From NCBI GenBank assembly GCA_024277115.1, contig JAJRVW010000036.1:1-42041 (forward strand): DNA of 42,041 nucleotides. The letters run 5' to 3'. Position numbers and translations under genes: made by a program. The notes beneath the pieces were generated by a model. It saw only the letters and a list, made by a program, of their open reading frames with translations, had not been told where the DNA came from and ran no database searches. Numbering within the stretch: the first letter of the stretch is position 1; every line of letters begins with the position of its first letter. Source of the DNA: Calditrichota bacterium. Lineage in GTDB: Bacteria; Calditrichota; Calditrichia; Calditrichales; J004. Below are positions 18,608 through 42,041 of the stretch, one piece after another.

Positions 18608-21600
18608 ATGAATCGTTTTTCACGAGGAGTTTTATTATTACTTTGTTTTACGTCATTTGCTTTCTCGGCAGGCCTTAAAGTCAAAACTGTTGATCAAACA
18701 AATGATGCCCCCGCATTTGCCGGATATAATAAAACAACATTTGTAGTTAAGTTTAATAAAGAAACTGTAAATAAAGTTTTACAAAGTGCTGGATACAAAG
18801 ATGGACTTACGGGCCTTTCAAAACTGGACTTACTGAACAGGCAATCCGGCGTACTGGAAATGCTCCAAAAATATCCTAAAAGTGAGCCGAAAACTTTAAA
18901 TGGTAGAGTTATTGACCCCTCTCTTTGGTTCAAAATCATTATAAAAGAGAATGAAAATATCGAGGAAATAGTTAAAAAGTACCGTGCCCTCCCCGGTGTT
19001 ATCGATGCACAACCATCCGGAATTCATAAAATCAACGCAACGGCCAATGATCCGCGCTTAGTTGATCAATGGCATTTAGACCAAGCCAATGACAGCGATA
19101 TGGATGCCCCGGAAGCCTGGGATATTGAAACAGGAAATCCCCAAATTATCGTAGCTTGTATGGATACAGGTGTGCGCTATTTTCATAAAGATTTAGGCGG
19201 CGCAAACGCTTCTTATAATAACCCCGAAAACTCAGCAGGTAATATGTGGATCAATGAAGCTGAGAAAAATGGTATTGCCGGTGTTGATGATGATGGCAAC
19301 GGCTATATTGATGATTGGATTGGTTGGGATTTTGTTGACAACCAGACCGGTTTTGGTTCTGAAGATGCGGATGTTCCTGATAATGACCCCCGCGATTTTA
19401 ACGGCCATGGCACACATATTACAGGTACAATCGGTGCTATTAATAATAATAACTATGCCGTTTCTTCCGTTGCAGGTGGTTGGGAAAATGGAAGCCAGCA
19501 GGTAACAGGCAACGGCGTTAAATTGATGGCCTTGCGTATTGGCTGGTCGGGCGTATTTATTATTTTTGAAGTTGGTTATATCGATATGGGCCACGCAGCC
19601 GATGCCTTTATGTATGCGGCAGATAATGGAGCACGTATTGCTTCTTGTAGCTGGGGTTCCTCAAATACAGGCGGTTTAGGCGATGCAATGGATTATTTTG
19701 TTGCCAGTGGCGGCCTTATTTTTAAAGCGGCCGGTAATGATAATGACGAACAATCGGACTATATGCTTGACCGTGCCGATGTAATTGGCGTGGCTTCTAC
19801 AGATCAGAATGACTTGAAATCAGATTTCTCTACCTACGGTACATTTGTTGATATTTCAGCGCCTGGCACAGACATCTATTCGACATACCATGATAAAGAT
19901 GATCCTCAAAATGATTATGTTGCCGCTTTAAGTGGTACATCTATGGCCACACCAAATTCAGCTGGAACGGCTGCTTTGATTTGGTCAAAACATCCGGATT
20001 GGACCGCTGATCAGGTTAAACAAAGATTGTTTGATACTGCCGATGATATTTATGGTATTGCCGGTAATTCTGCCTATGCGGGCAAGCTCGGCGCCGGACG
20101 TATCAATGCTTTTAATGCTGTAAATGATGGCGGGACCCCTGCAGCGCCAACTGCTGCTTTCTCCGGAACTCCGCTTAGTGGTTGCCCAACGCTTACAGTA
20201 AACTTTACAGATAACTCCACAGGATCGATCGATACATGGAGCTGGGATTTTGGCGATGGCGCTACATCTTCTACACAGAATCCTTCACATGATTATGCAT
20301 CAGCTGGAACCTATACAGTTTCTTTGACGGTGACCGGGCCAGGTGGAAGTGATACAAATACAAAAACAAACTACATCAGCGTTACCGATCCTACGGTTAA
20401 TGCAGATTTTAGTGGCACGCCAACCTCTGGTGATTCCCCATTAAATGTTGCGTTTACAGATGCATCAACAGGAAATGTAACAGGCTGGAACTGGGACTTT
20501 GGTGACGGTGCATCAGCGACTACTCAAAACCCAAGCCATACATATAATACCGCGGGTGTTTATACGGTTACACTTACAGCTTCTAATGCATGTGGTAATA
20601 GCGTGGCTACTAAAACGGATTATATTACAGTTACAACGCCACCTTGTGATTTACCGGTTGCAGATTTTAGTGGTACGCCAACCTCGGGCGATACACCTTT
20701 AAATGTTGCATTTACGGATAACACCACAAACAATCCAACAAGCTGGAGCTGGGATTTTGGTGATGGCGCGACATCTACTGTACAGAACCCAAGCCACACT
20801 TATAATACGGCCGGTAATTATACGGTTTCTTTAACATCTACAAATTCTTGTGGAAGCGATACACAAACAAAGGTTGATTATATCACGGTTACTGATCCGC
20901 CTTGTAACCTACCGGTTGCAGGATTTAGTGGCACGCCTACATCGGGCGATACACCTTTAAATGTAGCATTTACAGATAATACTACAAACAGCCCAACAAG
21001 CTGGAGCTGGGATTTTGGCGATGGTGGTTCATCAACGGCACAAAACCCAAGCTACACTTACAATACAGCCGGTAGTTACACAGTTTCTCTAACGGCGACT
21101 AATGCTTGCGGCAGTGATACAGATACAAAAGTTAATTATATCACTGTTACCGATCCGCCAGCGGGCGATGAAATGCACGTTGCCTCTAATACGGTTACAA
21201 AGCAGACCTTCTTTATTTTTAGCAGGGCGAGTTCTACCATAAAAATTGTAGACCAAAATGGTGATCCTGTAAGCAATGCTTCTGTAGATGGGAGCTGGCA
21301 TGGAAGTAGCTCTAAAACCGTTACGCTTAATACAAATTCTAATGGTGAGGCTACAAGCACATCTAATTGGGTGTTTGGCAATGGTACATTTGAGTTCTGT
21401 GTTGACGATGTAACAAAAACAGGCTTTGTATATAACTCCACAGCAAATGTTGTAACTTGTGCCAGTACAGATGGAAGTACATCGGCATCAGTACAAGTTG
21501 CCAATATTAAACTGGAAGATATTGAAGGAGAGGTTGGTTTTAAGGTTGCAAGTAATAGCCCGAACCCATTTAACCCAAGCACGACAATTACTTTCCTGAT

Positions 21601-33986: not shown

Positions 33987-36509
33987 ATGGAAAACAATTC
34001 TTCAAAAGATAATCTTAAACTTGAAAATTGGGTACAGGAAATTGCAGCGGGTTCCGGCTCCAAAACCGTTGAGGAACTTGATGATATTGGGCAGAGGTTA
34101 AATTTATTTATTGCCAAGGCCGCGCAGGAAAATGTAGCTCTCTTTTTAAAAAAATGGAACATAATCGGTGGCCATGCACAAAGCAGCGATATGTTACGCC
34201 CCCTTAGCCAACGGCTGGAGCCCGAGATTTTTTATGCGTTTGCCGTTTATCTTTTGGAAAGCAATTCTACGCTCGAAATAGTTAATCCCGCTATTCACTA
34301 TTATCTCAATTTTTTCCGGCAGTCGGTTTTTCTGACAAAAATATATGATCAAAAAAAATGGGAAAGCCTGGTCCATAAGCTCATTTTAAAGAGTAATTTT
34401 CATACCGGCCAACTTTTTAATCAGCGCTTGGATGAATACGCCCGTAAAACCCTTTTTAGTGTGGTTAACGTAAACAGCATTAAAAATTATAACTGGCAAA
34501 CCGTCGATGAAAAAATTGACCGCCTAAAGCGTGGGATTGCAGCGCTTGCGTTTTCCTCCAGGGGAGAACACGCCAAAGTTGCTTTTTTGATGGAAAACAG
34601 TTTGCGGATGGCCATGTTGGATTTGGCCTGCCTGACAGGTGGAATCATAAATGTTATGATTGCCGCAAATAGTGTTCCGCAGCATATCGAGTTTATTTTA
34701 AACCAATCAAAAGCAGGGATTTTACTTGTTTCTAACGATAAACAACTCGCAAAAATAAAATCAATTAAAAACAAATTACCACACCTTAAGATAGTAGTAC
34801 TTTTGACTGGAAGCAGTATCGAAGACTGGGTGATTACCCTGGACGAAATGACTGACCTGGGCCAGAAATTTGAGACACATAAATTGCAAGCGCTCCGTGA
34901 TTCTATGTCGGTAGAATCTCTGGCCACCATCATGTATACAAGTGGTACGACTGGTGACCCTAAAGGGATTTTGTTCTCGCAGATGAACCTGGTTTACAAA
35001 CGTTTTTGCCGGGCGATGGCCTTGCCCGAAATTGGCGATACGGACCGCTATTTGTCTTTTCTCCCGCTCTTCCACACTTTTGGCCGTTTTCTGGAAATGA
35101 TGGGCGCGGTTTTTTGGGGAGCAGAATATGCCTTTATGGAAAACCCGGCCATGGAGACAATGCTGGATAATATGAAACGTGTGCAACCATCTATTTTTAT
35201 AAGTATCCCCAAAAAATGGTACGAGCTTTATAATTTTGTTTGTGCGCGGGTAGATATTGAGTTTGACGAGCCTGCAAAAATCTTGCATGCCGTAAAAGAA
35301 GCCAGTGGCGGAAACCTGAAATGGGGGCTTTCGGCGGCAGGGTTTTTAGAACCGGGTGTATTTAAATTTTTTCAGGCAAACGGCATCCACCTTATGAGCG
35401 GTTTTGGGATGACCGAAGCCACAGGTGGGATAACTATGACCCCGCCCAACCAATATAAAGAAAATTCTTTGGGCAAACCGTTGCCGGGTATTGAGGTTAA
35501 GCTGGCCGATGATGGCGAAATGCTGATCCGAGGCCCTTATGTGATGATGGATTATTATGAGGGTGATGATGCGGTTAAAGCCGATTTAGAACGCTGGTTG
35601 CCAACAGGCGATATAATGACCCTGGACGAAGACGGTTTCTATACAATTATCGATCGTAAAAAAGAGATTTATAAAAATATAAAAGGTGAGACCATTGCCC
35701 CGCAAAAAATTGAGAATTTCTTCCGTGATTTTGAATTTGTAAAACAGGTTTTCCTGGTAGGCGATCATCAACAATTTAACACGGTGTTGATTTATCCGGA
35801 TGAAGGGAACACCGCTTATGGCAAATTAAGCGACGAGGAAAAACAAAACTATTTTTCGACGGTTGTGGTGACTGTAAATAAATTCCTGGCTTCCTTTGAG
35901 CGTATTGTGGATTTCCGTTTAATTGATCGACCCTTTAGTGAAAACGAAGGTGAGTTAACGCCAAAAGGCACCTACAAACGCAGGGTGATAGAGACACATT
36001 TCAAGTCTGTTTTTGAACCGATGTACAGTAAAAATTATATCAGCCTGGCCTGGAATAACCAGGAAATACGCATCCCAAATTGGTTTTTACGCGAAAAGGG
36101 TTGCCTGACGCACGATATTCTGATCGAGGATAATAAACTGGCTATCCCTAAATATAACCTATCCCTCAGCTTGCAAGGGGACGCAGATGATTCTTCGAAA
36201 ATAACAATCGGAAATTTTGTCTTTGACAATGCCATAGCATTTATTGATTTTCAAATCGTCCTGAACAACCCGCTTTACTGGCTGGGTAATTACGACATCG
36301 TAAGTTTTACCGGCAACTCGATTTATCAGTGGTACAGGTTGGACACTACTGATACGCGCATGGAGTTTAATTCCATTATAAGCCACCGTGAAGTTGAAGA
36401 GGATATCCTTGAAAAATTTACTTCTATTGCCGAAGGCGGTGAGTATTCCCTGCAAGGGCTGCATTATGCCGTCTTGCTATTTCAGAGTGGTGAAATGGAG
36501 CTTCAGTAA
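33987..36509 (+). CDS. AMP-binding acyl-CoA synthetase-like protein, part 1 of a split giant
   Basis: An 840-residue protein ending at an in-frame TAA (36507-36509). Residues about 1-160 are a helical domain I do not recognise. Residues about 170-640 are an ANL-family adenylation domain of the long-chain acyl-CoA synthetase kind: the ATP loop YTSGTTGDPKG near 316, FLPLFHTFGR, SGFGMTEATGG near 471, TGDI near 539, and DRKKEIYKNIKGETIAPQKIE, all conserved. These enzymes activate fatty acids as acyl-adenylates and usually form acyl-CoA. Residues about 680-840 are unassigned. The same frame continues after the TAA with coding-quality sequence to 38765, so the native product was or is probably a single protein of about 1590 residues. 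It has its own upstream region after the terminator at 33883. Confidence 0.88.
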   Translation: MENNSSKDNLKLENWVQEIAAGSGSKTVEELDDIGQRLNLFIAKAAQENVALFLKKWNIIGGHAQSSDMLRPLSQRLEPEIFYAFAVYLLESNSTLEIVNPAIHYYLNFFRQSVFLTKIYDQKKWESLVHKLILKSNFHTGQLFNQRLDEYARKTLFSVVNVNSIKNYNWQTVDEKIDRLKRGIAALAFSSRGEHAKVAFLMENSLRMAMLDLACLTGGIINVMIAANSVPQHIEFILNQSKAGILLVSNDKQLAKIKSIKNKLPHLKIVVLLTGSSIEDWVITLDEMTDLGQKFETHKLQALRDSMSVESLATIMYTSGTTGDPKGILFSQMNLVYKRFCRAMALPEIGDTDRYLSFLPLFHTFGRFLEMMGAVFWGAEYAFMENPAMETMLDNMKRVQPSIFISIPKKWYELYNFVCARVDIEFDEPAKILHAVKEASGGNLKWGLSAAGFLEPGVFKFFQANGIHLMSGFGMTEATGGITMTPPNQYKENSLGKPLPGIEVKLADDGEMLIRGPYVMMDYYEGDDAVKADLERWLPTGDIMTLDEDGFYTIIDRKKEIYKNIKGETIAPQKIENFFRDFEFVKQVFLVGDHQQFNTVLIYPDEGNTAYGKLSDEEKQNYFSTVVVTVNKFLASFERIVDFRLIDRPFSENEGELTPKGTYKRRVIETHFKSVFEPMYSKNYISLAWNNQEIRIPNWFLREKGCLTHDILIEDNKLAIPKYNLSLSLQGDADDSSKITIGNFVFDNAIAFIDFQIVLNNPLYWLGNYDIVSFTGNSIYQWYRLDTTDTRMEFNSIISHREVEEDILEKFTSIAEGGEYSLQGLHYAVLLFQSGEMELQ

Positions 36510-38765
36510 CAGGCCATCGCCTATTTTAAATTTATTTTGGCCGATGACAACCTGCCGCTTTTTAACCTGGCAAAAGATATTGTATCGCGCCCAAAGCTGA
36601 CCTTATCCACGCAAGCGCGGCGCATGCTTTTTTCCACCGGGCTGCCCTATTTTAAGGGCGAGGCTTTTAGAAAATTTTTATCGGATTACCTTAAGGAAGA
36701 TTGTGCCCTGTTAAACGAGGAAACAACCCTGCAAATTATCCGCGATGCAAAGGGTGATGAAAATCTTGAGGCCATTTATAAAATCCTTAAGACAGAGGTG
36801 AAAGCATTGGTTGACAATGTTTTGCCCACCGATAGTTTTATCCCGTCTTTGTTTAATTTACTGGCCGAGTACGGCATCCATCACCCAACGCGATACAAGC
36901 GGGTACGCCAGCTTATCGTCCGTTACCAACTTACCTACCACATCCCGGCGCTTGTAAAAACAGCACACAAAGCACGGATTAAAATGCTTGACGGTTTTAG
37001 GCGTTGGTTGGGCGAAAACCAGCCTGTGGCCGTGGATGTGGAGACCAGCGAAGAATACGAATGGGGTGAAGTGATCACTTTTGAAGAGGAAATTAGCTCC
37101 GAGGACCGCGCATCCATTTTGGCCGGGATTTCCGAATCGTCTATAATCCGTGAAGCTATATTTTTGCTGTCCAGTGGGAGCATGGTGCGTTTGTACGATA
37201 TTCCACTCGGCGGTATCTGGGTCAGTTTTATGGAAGAACATCCCAACGAAACATTCTATCGCCTCTCGGTGCAAACCCGTTATCAGGGTTCGTATGATTT
37301 GGTTTTATGTCTTAATAAAAAATTTACCCACGATGGCCTGCGTGATGAAATAAACTGGTTGATCCATATCAGCACATCTAAAAGTGGCGAAAACCTTGTG
37401 GATAATTTTGGCGGTTACTGGCAGGCCTATAAAATGTGGACGAAAGAGTATTTGCCCAGCAATTCCATCGAAAAATTTATTGAGCGGACTTACCGAAAAA
37501 ACAGCGCAGAGGCCAGAAAGCGGCTTTATTTTCTGTGGCCGTTTTTTGTGTGGTCGGCAGCCTGGGCGCATGTTCAGTTTTGGCGCAGGACAAATTTTAC
37601 CATGGAACTTGCCGATAAATCGATTGGCAATATTGTTATCCCAAGCCACGATTATCAAACGGGCATTAAACATATTTCCATCCAAAACAGGGTTAAATCG
37701 ACCAATTTAAAAATGCTTTTGATTGATTTTCATAAACAATTTGTGGAGGGGGCAGAAGCGGATCACGAAGTATTGCGCCAGGGTTCGGTTTGGCAATTTA
37801 TCTTTTCGGCGGTGCTAAATTCCGAGGGCGAGGAGCGTGGCATTGAGTTGTTAGAGGATGTTATCGGGGCAAGTTCCGAAGCGGAAGAAGTCCATCGTGA
37901 AGCGCAGCTTTATATTAAAAAATATCAGGAAAATGGCTATTTGCCAAAACGTCTTTATTTTGCCATTCGGCGATTTGAGCGTTGGAGTTTGATAAATAAA
38001 GAGGCGGCCTTAAGCGCCCAGGCCCGCACCTTAAACGAACTTTACGACACCTATCGTTTGATCGATATCGAAAAAAAATATCCCGAAACGCGTCCCAATT
38101 TTTTCCTGCACACAGTCTTTACCGATTCGTCCGATAAATTTAAATCGGCGCTTTTTAACATTGTCCAAAAGCAACATGACGAATACTATTCTGCCGAGGA
38201 TGGCGTCGCGCTGATTTCGCAACTAAAAAACGAGTTTGAACTGACCGAGAAAGAAGAGTTTTTCCTTGCGCGCCTTAGTTACCGGCACCTTAAACCGGAG
38301 GACACAGCGGAGTTTATCAGCCTGCAAAGCGAAGGGGAGCAGCGCGCCGATGTGGTTATCCGCTTGGAAGATTATGATGGCCTTTCCTACCTGGTACGCA
38401 AACCGGTTTCGCCTAAAGAAATTTCCCGTTTGCACCAGATTTTTATGGAAGCGCAGATGCCGGTCAGTTTTAGGCCGGAGCATAAATTTTTGGTGGCCAT
38501 CTCCGAGCGTGGCCATGTTATCGGCGGGTTATTTTACAGCTATATCGATGATCAGACGGTGTATATGGAAAAAATTGTCGTCTCCAACCGCTATCGCCGC
38601 AAGGGTATCAGCGAAGGCGTAATGCAGGAGTTTTTTAACCGTATGCGCAGCGAGCATATCGAGACGGTGACGACGGGTTTCTTCCGGCCGGAGTATTTTT
38701 ACCGTTTTGGTTTTAAGGTGGAGCGCAAGTATAGCGGCCTGGCAAAAGACCTTACTAAAGATTGA
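36510..38765 (+). CDS. C-terminal part of the split giant, with GNAT acetyltransferase domain
   Basis: This frame is identical to that of the preceding synthetase gene and begins directly after its TAA with QAIAYFKFILADDNLPLF, which looks like the inside of a domain. No Shine-Dalgarno precedes the first candidate starts (TTG 36537 or ATG 36624), which supports a continuation rather than a separate gene. About 600 residues are of no family I recognise, with many aromatics (GGIWVSFMEEHP, FLWPFFVWSAAWAHVQFW). The last 120 residues are a GNAT N-acetyltransferase: FLVAISERGHVIGGLFY, VYMEKIVVSNRYRRKGISEGVMQEF (acetyl-CoA loop RRKGIS) and FYRFGFKVE. A synthetase joined to GNAT suggests acyl activation and transfer in one chain, which is inference. 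The sequence is visibly more GC-rich than the Rhs region that follows. Confidence 0.8.
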   Translation, partial: QAIAYFKFILADDNLPLFNLAKDIVSRPKLTLSTQARRMLFSTGLPYFKGEAFRKFLSDYLKEDCALLNEETTLQIIRDAKGDENLEAIYKILKTEVKALVDNVLPTDSFIPSLFNLLAEYGIHHPTRYKRVRQLIVRYQLTYHIPALVKTAHKARIKMLDGFRRWLGENQPVAVDVETSEEYEWGEVITFEEEISSEDRASILAGISESSIIREAIFLLSSGSMVRLYDIPLGGIWVSFMEEHPNETFYRLSVQTRYQGSYDLVLCLNKKFTHDGLRDEINWLIHISTSKSGENLVDNFGGYWQAYKMWTKEYLPSNSIEKFIERTYRKNSAEARKRLYFLWPFFVWSAAWAHVQFWRRTNFTMELADKSIGNIVIPSHDYQTGIKHISIQNRVKSTNLKMLLIDFHKQFVEGAEADHEVLRQGSVWQFIFSAVLNSEGEERGIELLEDVIGASSEAEEVHREAQLYIKKYQENGYLPKRLYFAIRRFERWSLINKEAALSAQARTLNELYDTYRLIDIEKKYPETRPNFFLHTVFTDSSDKFKSALFNIVQKQHDEYYSAEDGVALISQLKNEFELTEKEEFFLARLSYRHLKPEDTAEFISLQSEGEQRADVVIRLEDYDGLSYLVRKPVSPKEISRLHQIFMEAQMPVSFRPEHKFLVAISERGHVIGGLFYSYIDDQTVYMEKIVVSNRYRRKGISEGVMQEFFNRMRSEHIETVTTGFFRPEYFYRFGFKVERKYSGLAKDLTKD

Positions 38766-38792
38766 TGATTTTTAGATTGTAATATTGTAAAA

Positions 38793-39545
38793 TTGATGAC
38801 CGGTTGGGATTGTTTCGGCGCTAGGTACTATGACCCGACTATTGGAAGGTTTCTTTCTGTAGATCCGTTGGCTGGTGCTTTTCCCAGTTGGACACCTTAT
38901 AATTACACGTTCAATAATCCAATAAACTTCATAGATCCACTTGGTTTAGCACCTGAAGCACTTGCAACAAAGTTCTATGATGAAGATGGAGAACTTGTAT
39001 ATGATGACGGAGTTGATAATGGCGTTGAAGTGCACACTACTAAGGATCTTATTAAAGAACATACAGAAGATGGCTCTACTGATTGGGTTGGTGTTGCAAA
39101 TGATGAAAGAAGTGACTTTAGGATTGTTGATCAAGACAAATATGATAGATATGTTGAAAAAACATCAAATTGGGTAAAAAACTTTACAGGTGCCCTTTTT
39201 GTTCGACATGAGGGACGCTTTAATTTTAACGCACGGTTTGAACCTAATTCTGGGGTTGGTCCATTAGAGTGGGTTGGAATGGGAAATTCATGGAACTATT
39301 TTCAACATATTATGAAAGGAAAAAAATATACAGTTGCTATGTATCGTACTTGGCTAAAAGCTGGAGGTTATCAGAAGTGGAAAAGACTTTCAAGTACGTA
39401 TAAGACTTATATAAAAAGTGGTCCATTTTTAGGTTCTTTTAGGTCAGGATTAGAAGGAAACCTAACTCCTCCAAGCAGGGGGATTATAAATTGGACTGGT
39501 TGGGCAATTGGTCTTGGCATAAGAAGTGTTTCAGGGCTTCCATAA
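38793..39545 (+). CDS. Truncated Rhs tip with unrecognised C-terminal toxin candidate
   Basis: About 250 residues. The first 50 are the end of an Rhs core: CFGARYYDPTIGRFLSVDPLAG, then YNYTFNNPINFIDPLGL, after which Rhs and related proteins switch to a variable toxin. The usual thousand or more upstream Rhs residues are missing; the frame begins 28 bp after the GNAT gene, with no ribosome site, so this is a displaced or remnant tip rather than a complete gene. A Tyr-to-Cys change in the DYFGARYYD motif also hints at decay. Residues about 55-250 contain hydrophilic sequence with many Trp, Tyr and Lys and match no toxin family I know. A GTG-started small membrane protein gene follows 15 bp later, in the position of an immunity gene. 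Confidence 0.75.
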   Translation: MMTGWDCFGARYYDPTIGRFLSVDPLAGAFPSWTPYNYTFNNPINFIDPLGLAPEALATKFYDEDGELVYDDGVDNGVEVHTTKDLIKEHTEDGSTDWVGVANDERSDFRIVDQDKYDRYVEKTSNWVKNFTGALFVRHEGRFNFNARFEPNSGVGPLEWVGMGNSWNYFQHIMKGKKYTVAMYRTWLKAGGYQKWKRLSSTYKTYIKSGPFLGSFRSGLEGNLTPPSRGIINWTGWAIGLGIRSVSGLP

Positions 39546-39547
39546 AA

Positions 39548-39553
39548 GAAGGA
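39548..39553 (+). promoter_or_regulatory. Ribosome site for the GTG-started gene
   Basis: GAAGGA, seven bases before GTG 39561 and just after the Rhs-tip stop at 39545. It supports the non-ATG start and coupling of the two genes. Confidence 0.55.
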
Positions 39554-39560
39554 CGAATTA

Positions 39561-39983
39561 GTGTTATTACAAAAAACAATATTTTTTTTATTTAGCATAA
39601 ATCTAATTAAGAATTTTATTTTTAATGTGATTTTTCCAGAATACTTTGAGAAAATAAAATGGAAAAAAATAGCAGAAATAGGACAAACCAAATATCATTT
39701 AAGAAAATATCCTTATAAAATATACTATTTGATTTCTTTATTCTTTGGTTTTTTATATAGTAACTTACCTGGATTTTGGTTGGGTTTATTTGTAATATTT
39801 TTAATAATGTTTTCTGTTGGTTTATTTGCACTTTTAATTTCATTATGGAATAATGAGAAAGATATTTATAATTATACAGAAAAAGATTTACCGCGTTTCG
39901 TACTTGAACATAAGATGTTTGCCTTATTTGAGCTAGCACTATTAATAGTGTGGATTTATTCTTGGAAAGACATTTTTATTTAA
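39561..39983 (+). CDS. Small membrane protein, candidate immunity protein for Rhs tip 1
   Basis: 140 residues with about three or four hydrophobic segments (near residues 5-25, 52-70, 72-95 and 118-136), so probably an inner-membrane protein. I recognise no family. It starts at GTG with GAAGGA at a good distance. Its place directly behind an Rhs-tip coding region, on the same strand, is that of an immunity gene in toxin-immunity pairs; if so, a membrane immunity protein would suggest a toxin acting at or through the membrane. The sequence is much more AT-rich than the chromosomal genes to the left, consistent with acquired DNA. A 100-bp repeat follows immediately. Confidence 0.6.
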   Translation: MLLQKTIFFLFSINLIKNFIFNVIFPEYFEKIKWKKIAEIGQTKYHLRKYPYKIYYLISLFFGFLYSNLPGFWLGLFVIFLIMFSVGLFALLISLWNNEKDIYNYTEKDLPRFVLEHKMFALFELALLIVWIYSWKDIFI

Positions 39984-40013
39984 ATTAAATATGTAGATTT
40001 AAAAATAGTTTAC

Positions 40014-40117
40014 CATGCTCCTGCGAAATTGCGCAAGCCACTCGGCGGGGCTCGCTTTTACATAATCGTGGGGTTATATAACACGGTAAAACTGTGTTCC
40101 CCTGGCGGTATACAACT
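40014..40117. repeat. Rhs-module repeat, copy A
   Basis: Shares ordered blocks with copy B at 41271-41388: GCGCAAG (40031-40037), GCTTTTACATAAT (40054-40066), and an identical 31-bp run at 40068-40098 (matching 41338-41368), followed by CGGTATA. It sits directly after the putative immunity gene of module 1, as copy B does after module 2. Within the 31-bp block, GTTATATAAC is self-complementary. Confidence 0.8.
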
Positions 40118-40182
40118 AATCCTATGGCGATGGAGTGATCAGTAATGCAGGAAACAACTGGGCGGCTTTGCTTGCCAATTAG

Positions 40183-41055
40183 CATATTACCCGAAACGAT
40201 ACGCGCTATTATTATGTAAAAGACCATTTGGGCAGCATCCGCCAAACCTGGAAAGAGAACGGCGCTATTGTAAACGGCCAGGATTATTACCCCTTTGGCG
40301 AGGTGTTAAGGCAATACACGGTAAGCAGCCCGATAGAGAAATACATGTTTACCGAAAAAGAGAGGGACAAAGAAACAGGTTATGATTATTTCGGCGCAAG
40401 GTACTATGACCCCGCTATTGGGCGGTGGCTGAGTGTGGATCCTGCTCTTTTAAAATGGTCCACATCTCGTATAATGCAACACCAATTATTCGGCTTATCT
40501 CCTTATGCATATGTAAGAAATAATCCCATAAATAGATTTGATCCTGATGGATATGTTGACTGGCCAAAAGTAGGATGGGGAGCCTTAACTTTTGGAAGTG
40601 GTGTTGTGGAAGCCGTAGCTGGCGGTGTTATTGCTGGAGGATCAAGTGTAACAATCGTTGGTGGTGTTGTCGGAGTCGCGTTTATGACTCATGGATTCGC
40701 AGTTGCAGGGTTTGGAATAGCTGAAATGACCAAAGGTTTTCAAGACATACAAACTGAAACACCAAGCGGGCCACTTGAAGCTATTGGCGAAGCCACAGGT
40801 GGAGAAACTGGTAAATCTGTTGGGAAAGCAGCAGACGCAACAATAAATGCAGCAAGTGGTGGAAATCCACTTAAGAATTTTAAAAACGCAAAAAATGCTT
40901 TACCAACCTCTGCAAAACAAGCTAAAAATACACCTGGCTATCAAAAAGAAGTTGCAAAGGAGTTAATCAAAGGAACGAGCACTGTAACATCTGAGGTTCA
41001 AGCTACCGATGCAATTATTGAAGTAGTTGATGATGATGAAAAGAAAAAAAAATAA
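40183..41055 (+). CDS. Truncated Rhs tip 2 with hydrophobic C-terminal toxin candidate
   Basis: The Rhs reading frame opens after a TAG at 40180-40182 and reads DTRYYYVKDHLGSIRQTW, then YYPFGEVLRQY, DYFGARYYDPAIGRWLSVDP and YAYVRNNPINRFDPDGYVDW, the conserved end of the Rhs core. The rest of an Rhs protein is absent, and no start codon with a ribosome site is seen, so it is a remnant or silent tip; TTG 40228 is the first in-frame start codon. The variable part (about 180 residues) starts with a glycine-rich hydrophobic segment (GWGALTFGSGVVEAVAGGVIAGG..IVGGVVGVAF), like the membrane-active pretoxin segments of Rhs toxins, then a Lys/Asn/Ala-rich end with DDDEKKKK. No known toxin domain is recognised. 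A small two-helix membrane protein follows. Confidence 0.75.
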   Translation, partial: HITRNDTRYYYVKDHLGSIRQTWKENGAIVNGQDYYPFGEVLRQYTVSSPIEKYMFTEKERDKETGYDYFGARYYDPAIGRWLSVDPALLKWSTSRIMQHQLFGLSPYAYVRNNPINRFDPDGYVDWPKVGWGALTFGSGVVEAVAGGVIAGGSSVTIVGGVVGVAFMTHGFAVAGFGIAEMTKGFQDIQTETPSGPLEAIGEATGGETGKSVGKAADATINAASGGNPLKNFKNAKNALPTSAKQAKNTPGYQKEVAKELIKGTSTVTSEVQATDAIIEVVDDDEKKKK

Positions 41056-41070
41056 TGCTGGAGGTTTGAA

Positions 41071-41253
41071 ATGAATAAGTCCCTTTTAAATGCAGTGGGC
41101 ATAGGTATTTTAGTTATAATTACAATCTCAGTTTTATTAACAATTACTGGAGTAATGGACGGTAAGCTTGGGGATTATATAATCATGATAACCAGCCTTG
41201 TAACTGCAGTTAGTATTACCATATATATTAGAAGAAACAAGAGACAGGAGTAG
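41071..41253 (+). CDS. Small two-helix membrane protein, candidate immunity protein 2
   Basis: 60 residues, two predicted transmembrane helices (about 8-27 and 35-52) with a basic C-terminus (RRNKRQE), so probably inserted with the tail in the cytosol. GGAGG at 41060-41064 is a strong ribosome site. It starts 15 bp after the second Rhs tip, the position expected of an immunity gene, and is followed by repeat copy B. It resembles no named family to me; a short membrane peptide of another role is possible. Confidence 0.6.
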   Translation: MNKSLLNAVGIGILVIITISVLLTITGVMDGKLGDYIIMITSLVTAVSITIYIRRNKRQE

Positions 41254-41270
41254 GTTTAAGGAAGGGTTTT

Positions 41271-41408
41271 CCAGGCTCCCGCAGAATAGCGCAAGACCGC
41301 CCACCGGGAAAAAACATCCGGCGGGCTTTTACATAATGTGGGGTTATATAACACGGTAAAACTGTGTTTCCCTATCGGTATATAACCAACATTCATGTAA
41401 ACTTGCTT
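41271..41408. repeat. Rhs-module repeat, copy B, also left arm of a large inverted repeat
   Basis: Copy B of the module repeat (compare 40014-40117). Going right it holds CGCAAGACCGC (41290-41300), GCTTTTACATAA (41325-41336), the 31-bp block at 41338-41368, CGGTATATA (41376-41384) and ATGTAAACTTGCTT (41395-41408). Four of these recur in reverse complement and reverse order at 41708-41839. Confidence 0.8.
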
Positions 41409-41643
41409 TGGGCAGTCCGAAGGGAAAACGCGCATTGCTCACCCGCCTATCTTAACTGGGTTCATGGGCAAGGATAAGTTTAAACATTTCACGACGAATT
41501 AGGCGGCACTCGCAAACACGCGGTAGCCGCCTTCGTTTTTTAGGAACTTCGGCGGCCACCATCCAAGCCGGTGTTTCGCCGGTTTTTCTTTAGCTGCTTT
41601 TTCCCCGACAAGCCGGGACTTGCAGCCTGCCGGAAAATTTAGT

Positions 41644-41685: not shown

Positions 41686-41707
41686 TGGAAGAACTTCGAA
41701 TAACCGG

Positions 41708-41839
41708 AAGCAAGTTTACATAAAGACCACTTATATACCGCAGGGCGAACCGCGAACGTCTTTTTTTTTGCGAGGGGTTATATAAGTTGCGTTATGTAAA
41801 AGCGATACCCCGAGTTTTTACGGGGAGAGCGGTCTTGCG
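41708..41839. repeat. Right arm of the large imperfect inverted repeat
   Basis: Contains AAGCAAGTTTACAT (41708-41721), TATATACCG (41732-41740), TTATGTAAAAGC (41792-41803) and GCGGTCTTGCG (41829-41839), the reverse complements of four blocks of copy B in reversed order. Together the arms flank about 300 bp of GC-richer, hairpin-rich sequence. The pattern fits a recombination site, an element end, or a structured RNA. Confidence 0.75.
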
Positions 41840-42041
41840 TAACTTCGGGGAAACCCATAATCTTTCAATTAGTAAGTTTGGCAGTGAAGCGTCCTGAAAA
41901 AGGTTGACTGTTTTTAACGCTTTTTAATGTGTTTTTTACATTAAAAAGGGCTGTTCTTGTTCTTGTTTTTCAGCAGCGCTGCTGAAATTTTTTTTCGGGT
42001 AATACGCCTTCCATTTTTGCTGTAATTTACCCTGTTTTTCA

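Follow-up and report, generated by a model that had tools for sequence, protein, structure and literature searches.

Displaced Rhs C-terminal modules in a Calditrichota genome end in double dif-like sites through which host XerC/XerD may have moved them

Introduction

Orphan CDI/Rhs toxin-immunity modules are common, and when the rhs-CT/rhsI and cdiA-CT/cdiI modules were described the ways in which they are gained, moved and exchanged were stated to be unknown (Poole et al. 2011, PMC3150448). The locus analysed here raises the same question in a concrete form: what stacked two Rhs tips, each with a small gene behind it, at one end of a contig, and what is the repeat that follows each of them? 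The window (42,041 nt) is the whole contig C227 of a 255-contig, 4.97-Mb genome (G000), and the original prediction had read its right end as a cassette store of toxin-immunity pairs in an FCB-type bacterium, in which the repeat marks the cassette boundary and may drive exchange.

We reason that a few displaced Rhs C-terminal modules are stored here, each ended by a double dif-like site, and that host XerC/XerD moved the modules; the probability that we attach to this reading is roughly 0.5. Its two parts differ in strength, as the anatomy of modules and elements is close to secure and the Xer-driven mechanism stands at about even odds. A dif-like site at the module end offers a definite mechanism that can be tested and a mark to search for, and with it the open question of how polymorphic toxins turn over becomes accessible to experiment.

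Two displaced Rhs tips in tandem

The first module opens with an orphan Rhs tip (38799-39545, + strand), in which approximately 50 aa of Rhs-associated core (38799-38945, TIGR03696, E 9.1e-14) are followed by a unique C-terminus, and continues with an ORF of 140 aa (39561-39983, +) that has hydrophobic stretches but no family match and is a candidate immunity gene. The second (40115-41055, +) consists of an orphan Rhs core remnant and its tip (TIGR03696, E 4e-21 at 40228-40551), with core DNA 92-96% identical to that of contig C64 in the same genome. Its ORF spans 40228-41055, the Rhs core DNA begins upstream (from ~40120), and an in-frame TAG (40180-40182) lies in this upstream part. A 60-aa membrane-protein ORF with hydrophobic stretches and a GGAGG-type ribosome site (41071-41253, +) comes after it as a further candidate immunity gene. 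The gap between tip and small membrane-protein ORF is 15 bp in both modules, and the order first proposed (tip, small gene, repeat with an identical 31-bp block, twice in succession) is present in the window as described.

Both tips show what characterizes an orphan Rhs module at the sequence level, i.e. a core end and a unique C-terminus with the body missing. The long Rhs body is indeed absent both times: tip 1 starts ~34 bp after an unrelated gene and tip 2 starts within the half element that we call repeat A. No toxin family was recognized in the tips in Pfam, NCBIfam, PADLOC or PDB sequences, and tip 1 had no match on plasmids; we treat the small downstream genes as presumed immunity partners of presumed toxin tips. 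The nearest named Rhs relatives are Melioribacteraceae and Ignavibacteriae records, which fits the presumed FCB affiliation.

The repeat as a pair of inverted dif-like sites

The 31-bp block occurs exactly at 40068-40098 and 41338-41368, both times behind a small gene, and no other copy turned up when the 4.97-Mb genome was searched at a tolerance of 3 mismatches; a 31-bp match arose in 0 of 100 shuffled windows. As the arms of the repeat resembled dif, the order was searched for XerC/XerD-type sites. A sequence of the form GTTRTATAA-TATATA-TTATGTAAACT (with small variants) proved common to most of 21 genomes of the order (e.g., G000:C143:55889 and G006:2539358, the latter about half-way round a 4.98-Mb closed contig) and, judging from its sequence, recurrence and position, we take it to be the chromosomal dif. 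Clear XerC- and XerD-type genes are present in the genome.

A dif matrix was built from eight chromosomal dif sites of the order, none of them taken from the elements. When it was run over the 42-kb window, the five half-sites of repeat A, repeat B and a third copy ranked first (19.8-25.1 bits), while the next-best place scored 10.4 bits and the best place per resampled window (n=20) 10.0-16.0 bits; the true dif sites of the order reach 30-33 bits. This ranking is the reason for which we describe the full element as two inverted dif-like sites, and it suggests that the half-sites of the window are Xer recombination sites resembling the host dif. That the hairpins are mere transcription terminators or MITE/REP-type repeats, resembling dif by chance, would agree with their stability and their location behind genes, but it is very improbable, since the matrix scores are far above those of resampled sequence, each genome holds only a handful of copies, and the arms are conserved where the loops vary.

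The two repeats originally placed at 40014-40117 and 41271-41388 are real, yet of unequal extent. Repeat A (40009-40114, +) is a half element by comparison of copies, comprising the hairpin unit's left side as far as the inner XerC arm, behind which Rhs core DNA begins; its dif-like site (40055-40084, -, 24.5 bits) reads GTGTTATATAA-8 nt-TTATGTAAAAG. Repeat B (41267-41540, +) is a full element, with a conserved left flank, a forked hairpin (41289-41412, single-strand fold z -4.9) and a conserved right extension that reaches ~41540. Its left site (41326-41354, -, 24.5 bits) is GTGTTATATAA-CCCCACA-TTATGTAAAAG and its right site (41375-41403, +, 19.8 bits) is TCGGTATATAA-CCAACAT-TCATGTAAACT. A third full element, inverted (41704-41840, -) and overlooked at first, holds dif-like sites at 41713-41741 (-, 25.1 bits) and 41775-41802 (+, 22.5 bits).

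From the copies in this genome and in one genome of the same genus a common plan could be drawn: the left flank is conserved (GCTCCCGCGGAGTAGCGCAAG), a side hairpin comes next, and a long stem (TTTACATAAT..GTTATA / TATAAC..ATTCATGTAAACTTGC) encloses a variable loop. In a full element the two inverted dif-like sites stand ~20-70 bp apart, with the XerD arms outside and the XerC arms inside. The half-site spacers measure 5-8 bp against the 6 bp of a canonical dif, and among the five half-sites of the window only 41775-41802 has 6 bp. A covariance model of 11 copies found 92.6% of the cells paired and 14 cells changed on both sides, so that compensatory changes support the pairing; the covariation score exceeded those of all 500 shuffles and of every slid version. 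Folded as single-stranded DNA, 6 of 8 elements did better than most shuffles and 2 of 8 did not. No Rfam family matched the element at gathering score.

Not every site is intact. Tip 2 is flanked by repeats A and B and tip 1 lacks a left site; behind repeat A the site at the inner junction is now degenerate (XerC arm 3.4 bits, XerD arm -5.8 bits), and the left site of element C64_1 has lost its XerD arm. On their right side, full elements are accompanied by conserved sequence rich in hairpins (window 41415-41540, C64:6760-6890 and G001:C2 592600-593400); in G001 a ParE-type toxin-antitoxin pair interrupts it.

Tip exchange through the core and mosaic elements

The tandem layout of Rhs tips recurs in C64 and in genome G019; together with the TIGR03696 match of both window tips, this bears out the view that displaced orphan tips are stored in tandem. 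In C64 a long Rhs body ends in its tip, behind which lie a small membrane-protein ORF and a half repeat; a second orphan tip comes next, followed by a TPR-protein ORF and, last, a full repeat. Between window and C64 a stretch of 335 bp, which begins at the half repeat's left XerC arm and reaches GGTACTAT within the core, is ~94% identical, and beyond GGTACTAT the tips are unrelated. A shared core followed by unrelated tips is, at the level of sequence comparison, the signature of tip exchange, in agreement with the early proposal that the tips recombine through the core.

The expectation that a full-length Rhs gene would carry one of these tips found no support in the genome, as no intact long Rhs gene with the core type of the window was detected. 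The body and core at C64:1-3927 are 92% identical to the window's at the DNA level but contain an in-frame stop and meet the contig edge: this nearest body (C64:1-2829) is cut short by the end of the contig, and its stop (2830-2832) lies ahead of the core. An intact Rhs protein of 2514 aa, further along C64, has another core type. The core of the second tip of C64 contains an in-frame insertion of ~42 bp between GARYY and DP (G000:C64:4731-4800). A proposed identity of the first C64 tip with the tip of G001 was rejected, as BLASTP aligns the core and core edge only and the small genes show no recognisable kinship.

Tandem Rhs tips with core repeats of ~300 bp (91-93% identity) were also seen at G006:C1:4843000-4849000 and in a Melioribacteraceae record (JAIOZI010000054.1, L074). 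The G006 array has no dif-like hairpin, so tandem tips arise also without the element.

These data bear on the most serious alternative, namely an orphan Rhs array of the ordinary kind, with homologous recombination through the core as the shaping force and the hairpins being old Xer sites of unrelated nearby elements or of elements that use the same landing places. Core homology alone can explain the exchange of tips (core DNA 92-96% identical between window and C64, tips unrelated), the tandem tips of G006 do without such elements, and elements occur also away from Rhs genes. On the other side, the position between or behind modules is repeated in several genera, independently found loci lie near Rhs above chance, and the block shared by half elements begins at the XerC arm. 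We consider this alternative possible but the less probable account.

The XerC arms are also the borders of the element mosaics. The loop blocks of the window's repeats A and B and of C64_1 are 88-93% alike and their left flanks 39-66%; for repeat A versus C64_1 identity is 39% left of the arm and 88% in the loop block, and it begins no more than 1 nt from the XerC arm. Element B combines the loop of A with flanks that are nearest to other elements. The block borders were set at the XerC arms, and a separate comparison without that choice had identity begin there too. Thus, the element mosaics break at XerC-arm edges.

Distribution of the elements

Convincing full elements were found in 6 of the 40 genomes of the phylum (G000, G001, G012, G018, G019 and G020), and with the covariance model copies also came to light in four more genera of the order. 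A model match in G023 (C101, E 0.002) looked AT-rich and, as a weak seventh case, was left out of the count. Full elements stand behind Rhs tip modules at six loci (window, C64, G001:C2, G018:C317, G019:C211 and G020:C28), and in G004 a dif-like site revealed a half element behind an Rhs tip. G019, a member of another family, has one dif-like site (17.1 bits) between the small gene of the first module and the second orphan tip, in the position of repeat A; a half element or single site thus occupies this place in the window, C64 and G019.

The proposed role of the repeat as the mark of a module's 3' end extends to G001, G004, G018 and G020, but a boundary mark is not all that it is, and the left end of the window's array (38766-38798) has no dif-like site. 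Tip-plus-repeat modules do exist in relatives (G001, G004, G018, G019, G020), and elements often adjoin toxin-antitoxin genes and, in addition, other ORFs: ParE-type (G001), Phd + PIN (G012), HicA-like (G019) and a few unassigned ORFs. Hence, the notion of an element exclusive to Rhs was rejected. Proximity to Rhs ends (at most 3.5 kb) was recorded for 3 of 8 model-found loci against 0.03-0.14 expected (P 1.7e-6 to 3e-4), a small sample with a rough null that counts only model-found loci not used as Rhs-derived seeds. A good dif-like site is missing at 4 of the 8 Rhs ends of this genome and at all those read in G006.

The chromosomal dif lies on C143 and the elements on C227, C64 and C126, i.e. 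away from it. This location, a lack of matches to a 26-bp element stretch in the viral collection, and the absence of phage-type genes noticed among the ORFs read around the elements (flanks were read rather than scanned systematically against a phage library) all speak against the elements being remnants of integrated ssDNA phages or other Xer-exploiting elements (IMEX) that left an attP hairpin behind and carried the Rhs and toxin-antitoxin genes as cargo. Such an origin would account for the layout of two opposite dif-like sites that fold into a forked hairpin, which matches CTX-type attP (PMC3089051); we regard it as unlikely.

A proposed route for the modules

The repeat being a pair of inverted dif-like Xer sites, the likely driver of exchange would be XerC/XerD and not only homologous recombination; in this sense the suggestion that the repeat may drive exchange gains a mechanism, while its restriction to Rhs is lost. 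We propose that host XerC/XerD recombined the dif-like sites, directly or as a folded single strand in which the two inverted sites would pair into one forked hairpin, so that modules were inserted, stacked or exchanged. The single-strand route is suggested by the attP of CTX phage, which pairs two opposite dif-like sites into a hairpin. The right-hand sites of repeats A and B have the same orientation, and recombination between them would yield a circle of ~1271 bp that holds the core and tip 2 together with the small gene of that tip and a single dif-like site; run backwards, the reaction would add such a module after one already in place. This scheme would predict inner elements that consist of a left half and one XerC arm, with only the last in a row complete, and mosaics with edges at the XerC arms, and both are seen. 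The inner junction site, being degenerate today, may be a scar. Once stored, a module could then pass its tip to an Rhs body, with homologous recombination acting on the core that both share.

A wider formulation, which we offer tentatively, is that of an integrase-free cassette system, in which host XerC/XerD would capture presumed toxin-immunity tips and toxin-antitoxin pairs and shuffle them as gene-plus-hairpin cassettes, acting on double dif sites folded in the manner of a CTX attP; the chromosome resolution machinery would thus serve polymorphic-toxin turnover in an integron-like way.

Comparison with known systems

The window modules resemble orphan rhs-CT/rhsI and cdiA-CT/cdiI modules (PMC3150448) in their core end, unique tip, small downstream gene, tandem arrangement, exchange through the core, and little or no start signal for the tip; they differ in that each module ends in a dif-like hairpin element and that toxin and immunity roles are presumed. 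In Acinetobacter, pdif/dif modules carry genes, often toxin-antitoxin, bounded by XerC/XerD sites on plasmids and chromosomes (PMC13141974, PMC12907356). Common to both are gene modules, often toxin-antitoxin, and Xer-site arms like the host dif; however, the Acinetobacter sites are single, with 6-bp spacers and alternating C and D modules, while ours are inverted pairs 20-70 bp apart, with spacers of 5-8 bp, in an unrelated phylum and with Rhs tips.

The attP of the CTX-type, Xer-exploiting filamentous phages (IMEX; PMC3089051, PMC5357621) shares the two opposite dif-like sites folding into a forked hairpin and the unequal spacers, but here no phage genes were noticed and several copies lie off dif, behind chromosomal gene modules. 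In Neisseria, vgrG effector-immunity clusters are flanked by dif (PMC10210955), so that effector and immunity genes likewise adjoin dif sites; those clusters are large and their dif sites plain, whereas hairpin pairs stand here at single Rhs tips. In the open-access literature we found no paper that ties dif-like hairpins to orphan Rhs tips. The dif-like hairpin at Rhs module ends extends the known Xer-mobilised modules to a further variant and, if the proposed mechanism is true, those of Acinetobacter, Neisseria and the filamentous phages would reach to stored Rhs tips in a distant phylum.

Integron cassettes, too, combine a gene with a palindromic recombination site, form arrays and carry toxin-antitoxin genes. 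The core boxes of attC follow the order RYYYAAC..GTTRRRY. An integron integrase (TIGR02249, 319 bits, above cut-off) is encoded, frameshifted, at G000:C217:8035-8972, a short contig on which no cassette array was seen. Its presence above the curated cut-off and the palindromic repeat behind each gene module would suit gene cassettes with attC, moved by this integrase. The box order of the elements (GTTATAC..GTATAAC) is, however, opposite to that of attC, on which ground the equation of element and attC was disfavoured; sequence differs as well, the arms match dif, no array adjoins the integrase, and the candidate recombinase is host XerC/XerD. We hold the integron origin to be highly improbable.

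Insertion context of the array

The large unrelated gene whose stop precedes the array by ~34 bp has a C-terminal GNAT domain. In 5 relatives its orthologue is followed by other genes, with no Rhs insertion there; therefore, the Rhs modules of the window would be an insertion of this lineage. The right flank of the array is lost, because the contig closes, over its last 157 bp (41885-42041, -), with one end of a repeated insertion sequence (transposase C-terminus), identical at 154 of 157 positions (98%) to C255:96-252; the C255 copy matches rve_3 with an E of 1.5e-4, below the curated cut-off.

Upstream of the array, an AMP-ligase-like ORF (840 aa) and the GNAT-ended ORF (742 aa) make up one gene in two frames (33987-38765, +). 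In five relatives the frame is open throughout (~1612-1638 aa), and the window has a frameshift or an assembly error near 36500-36537. Further to the left, 258-bp tandem repeats, PKD-like by eye, lie within a coding region (20237-21133, +).
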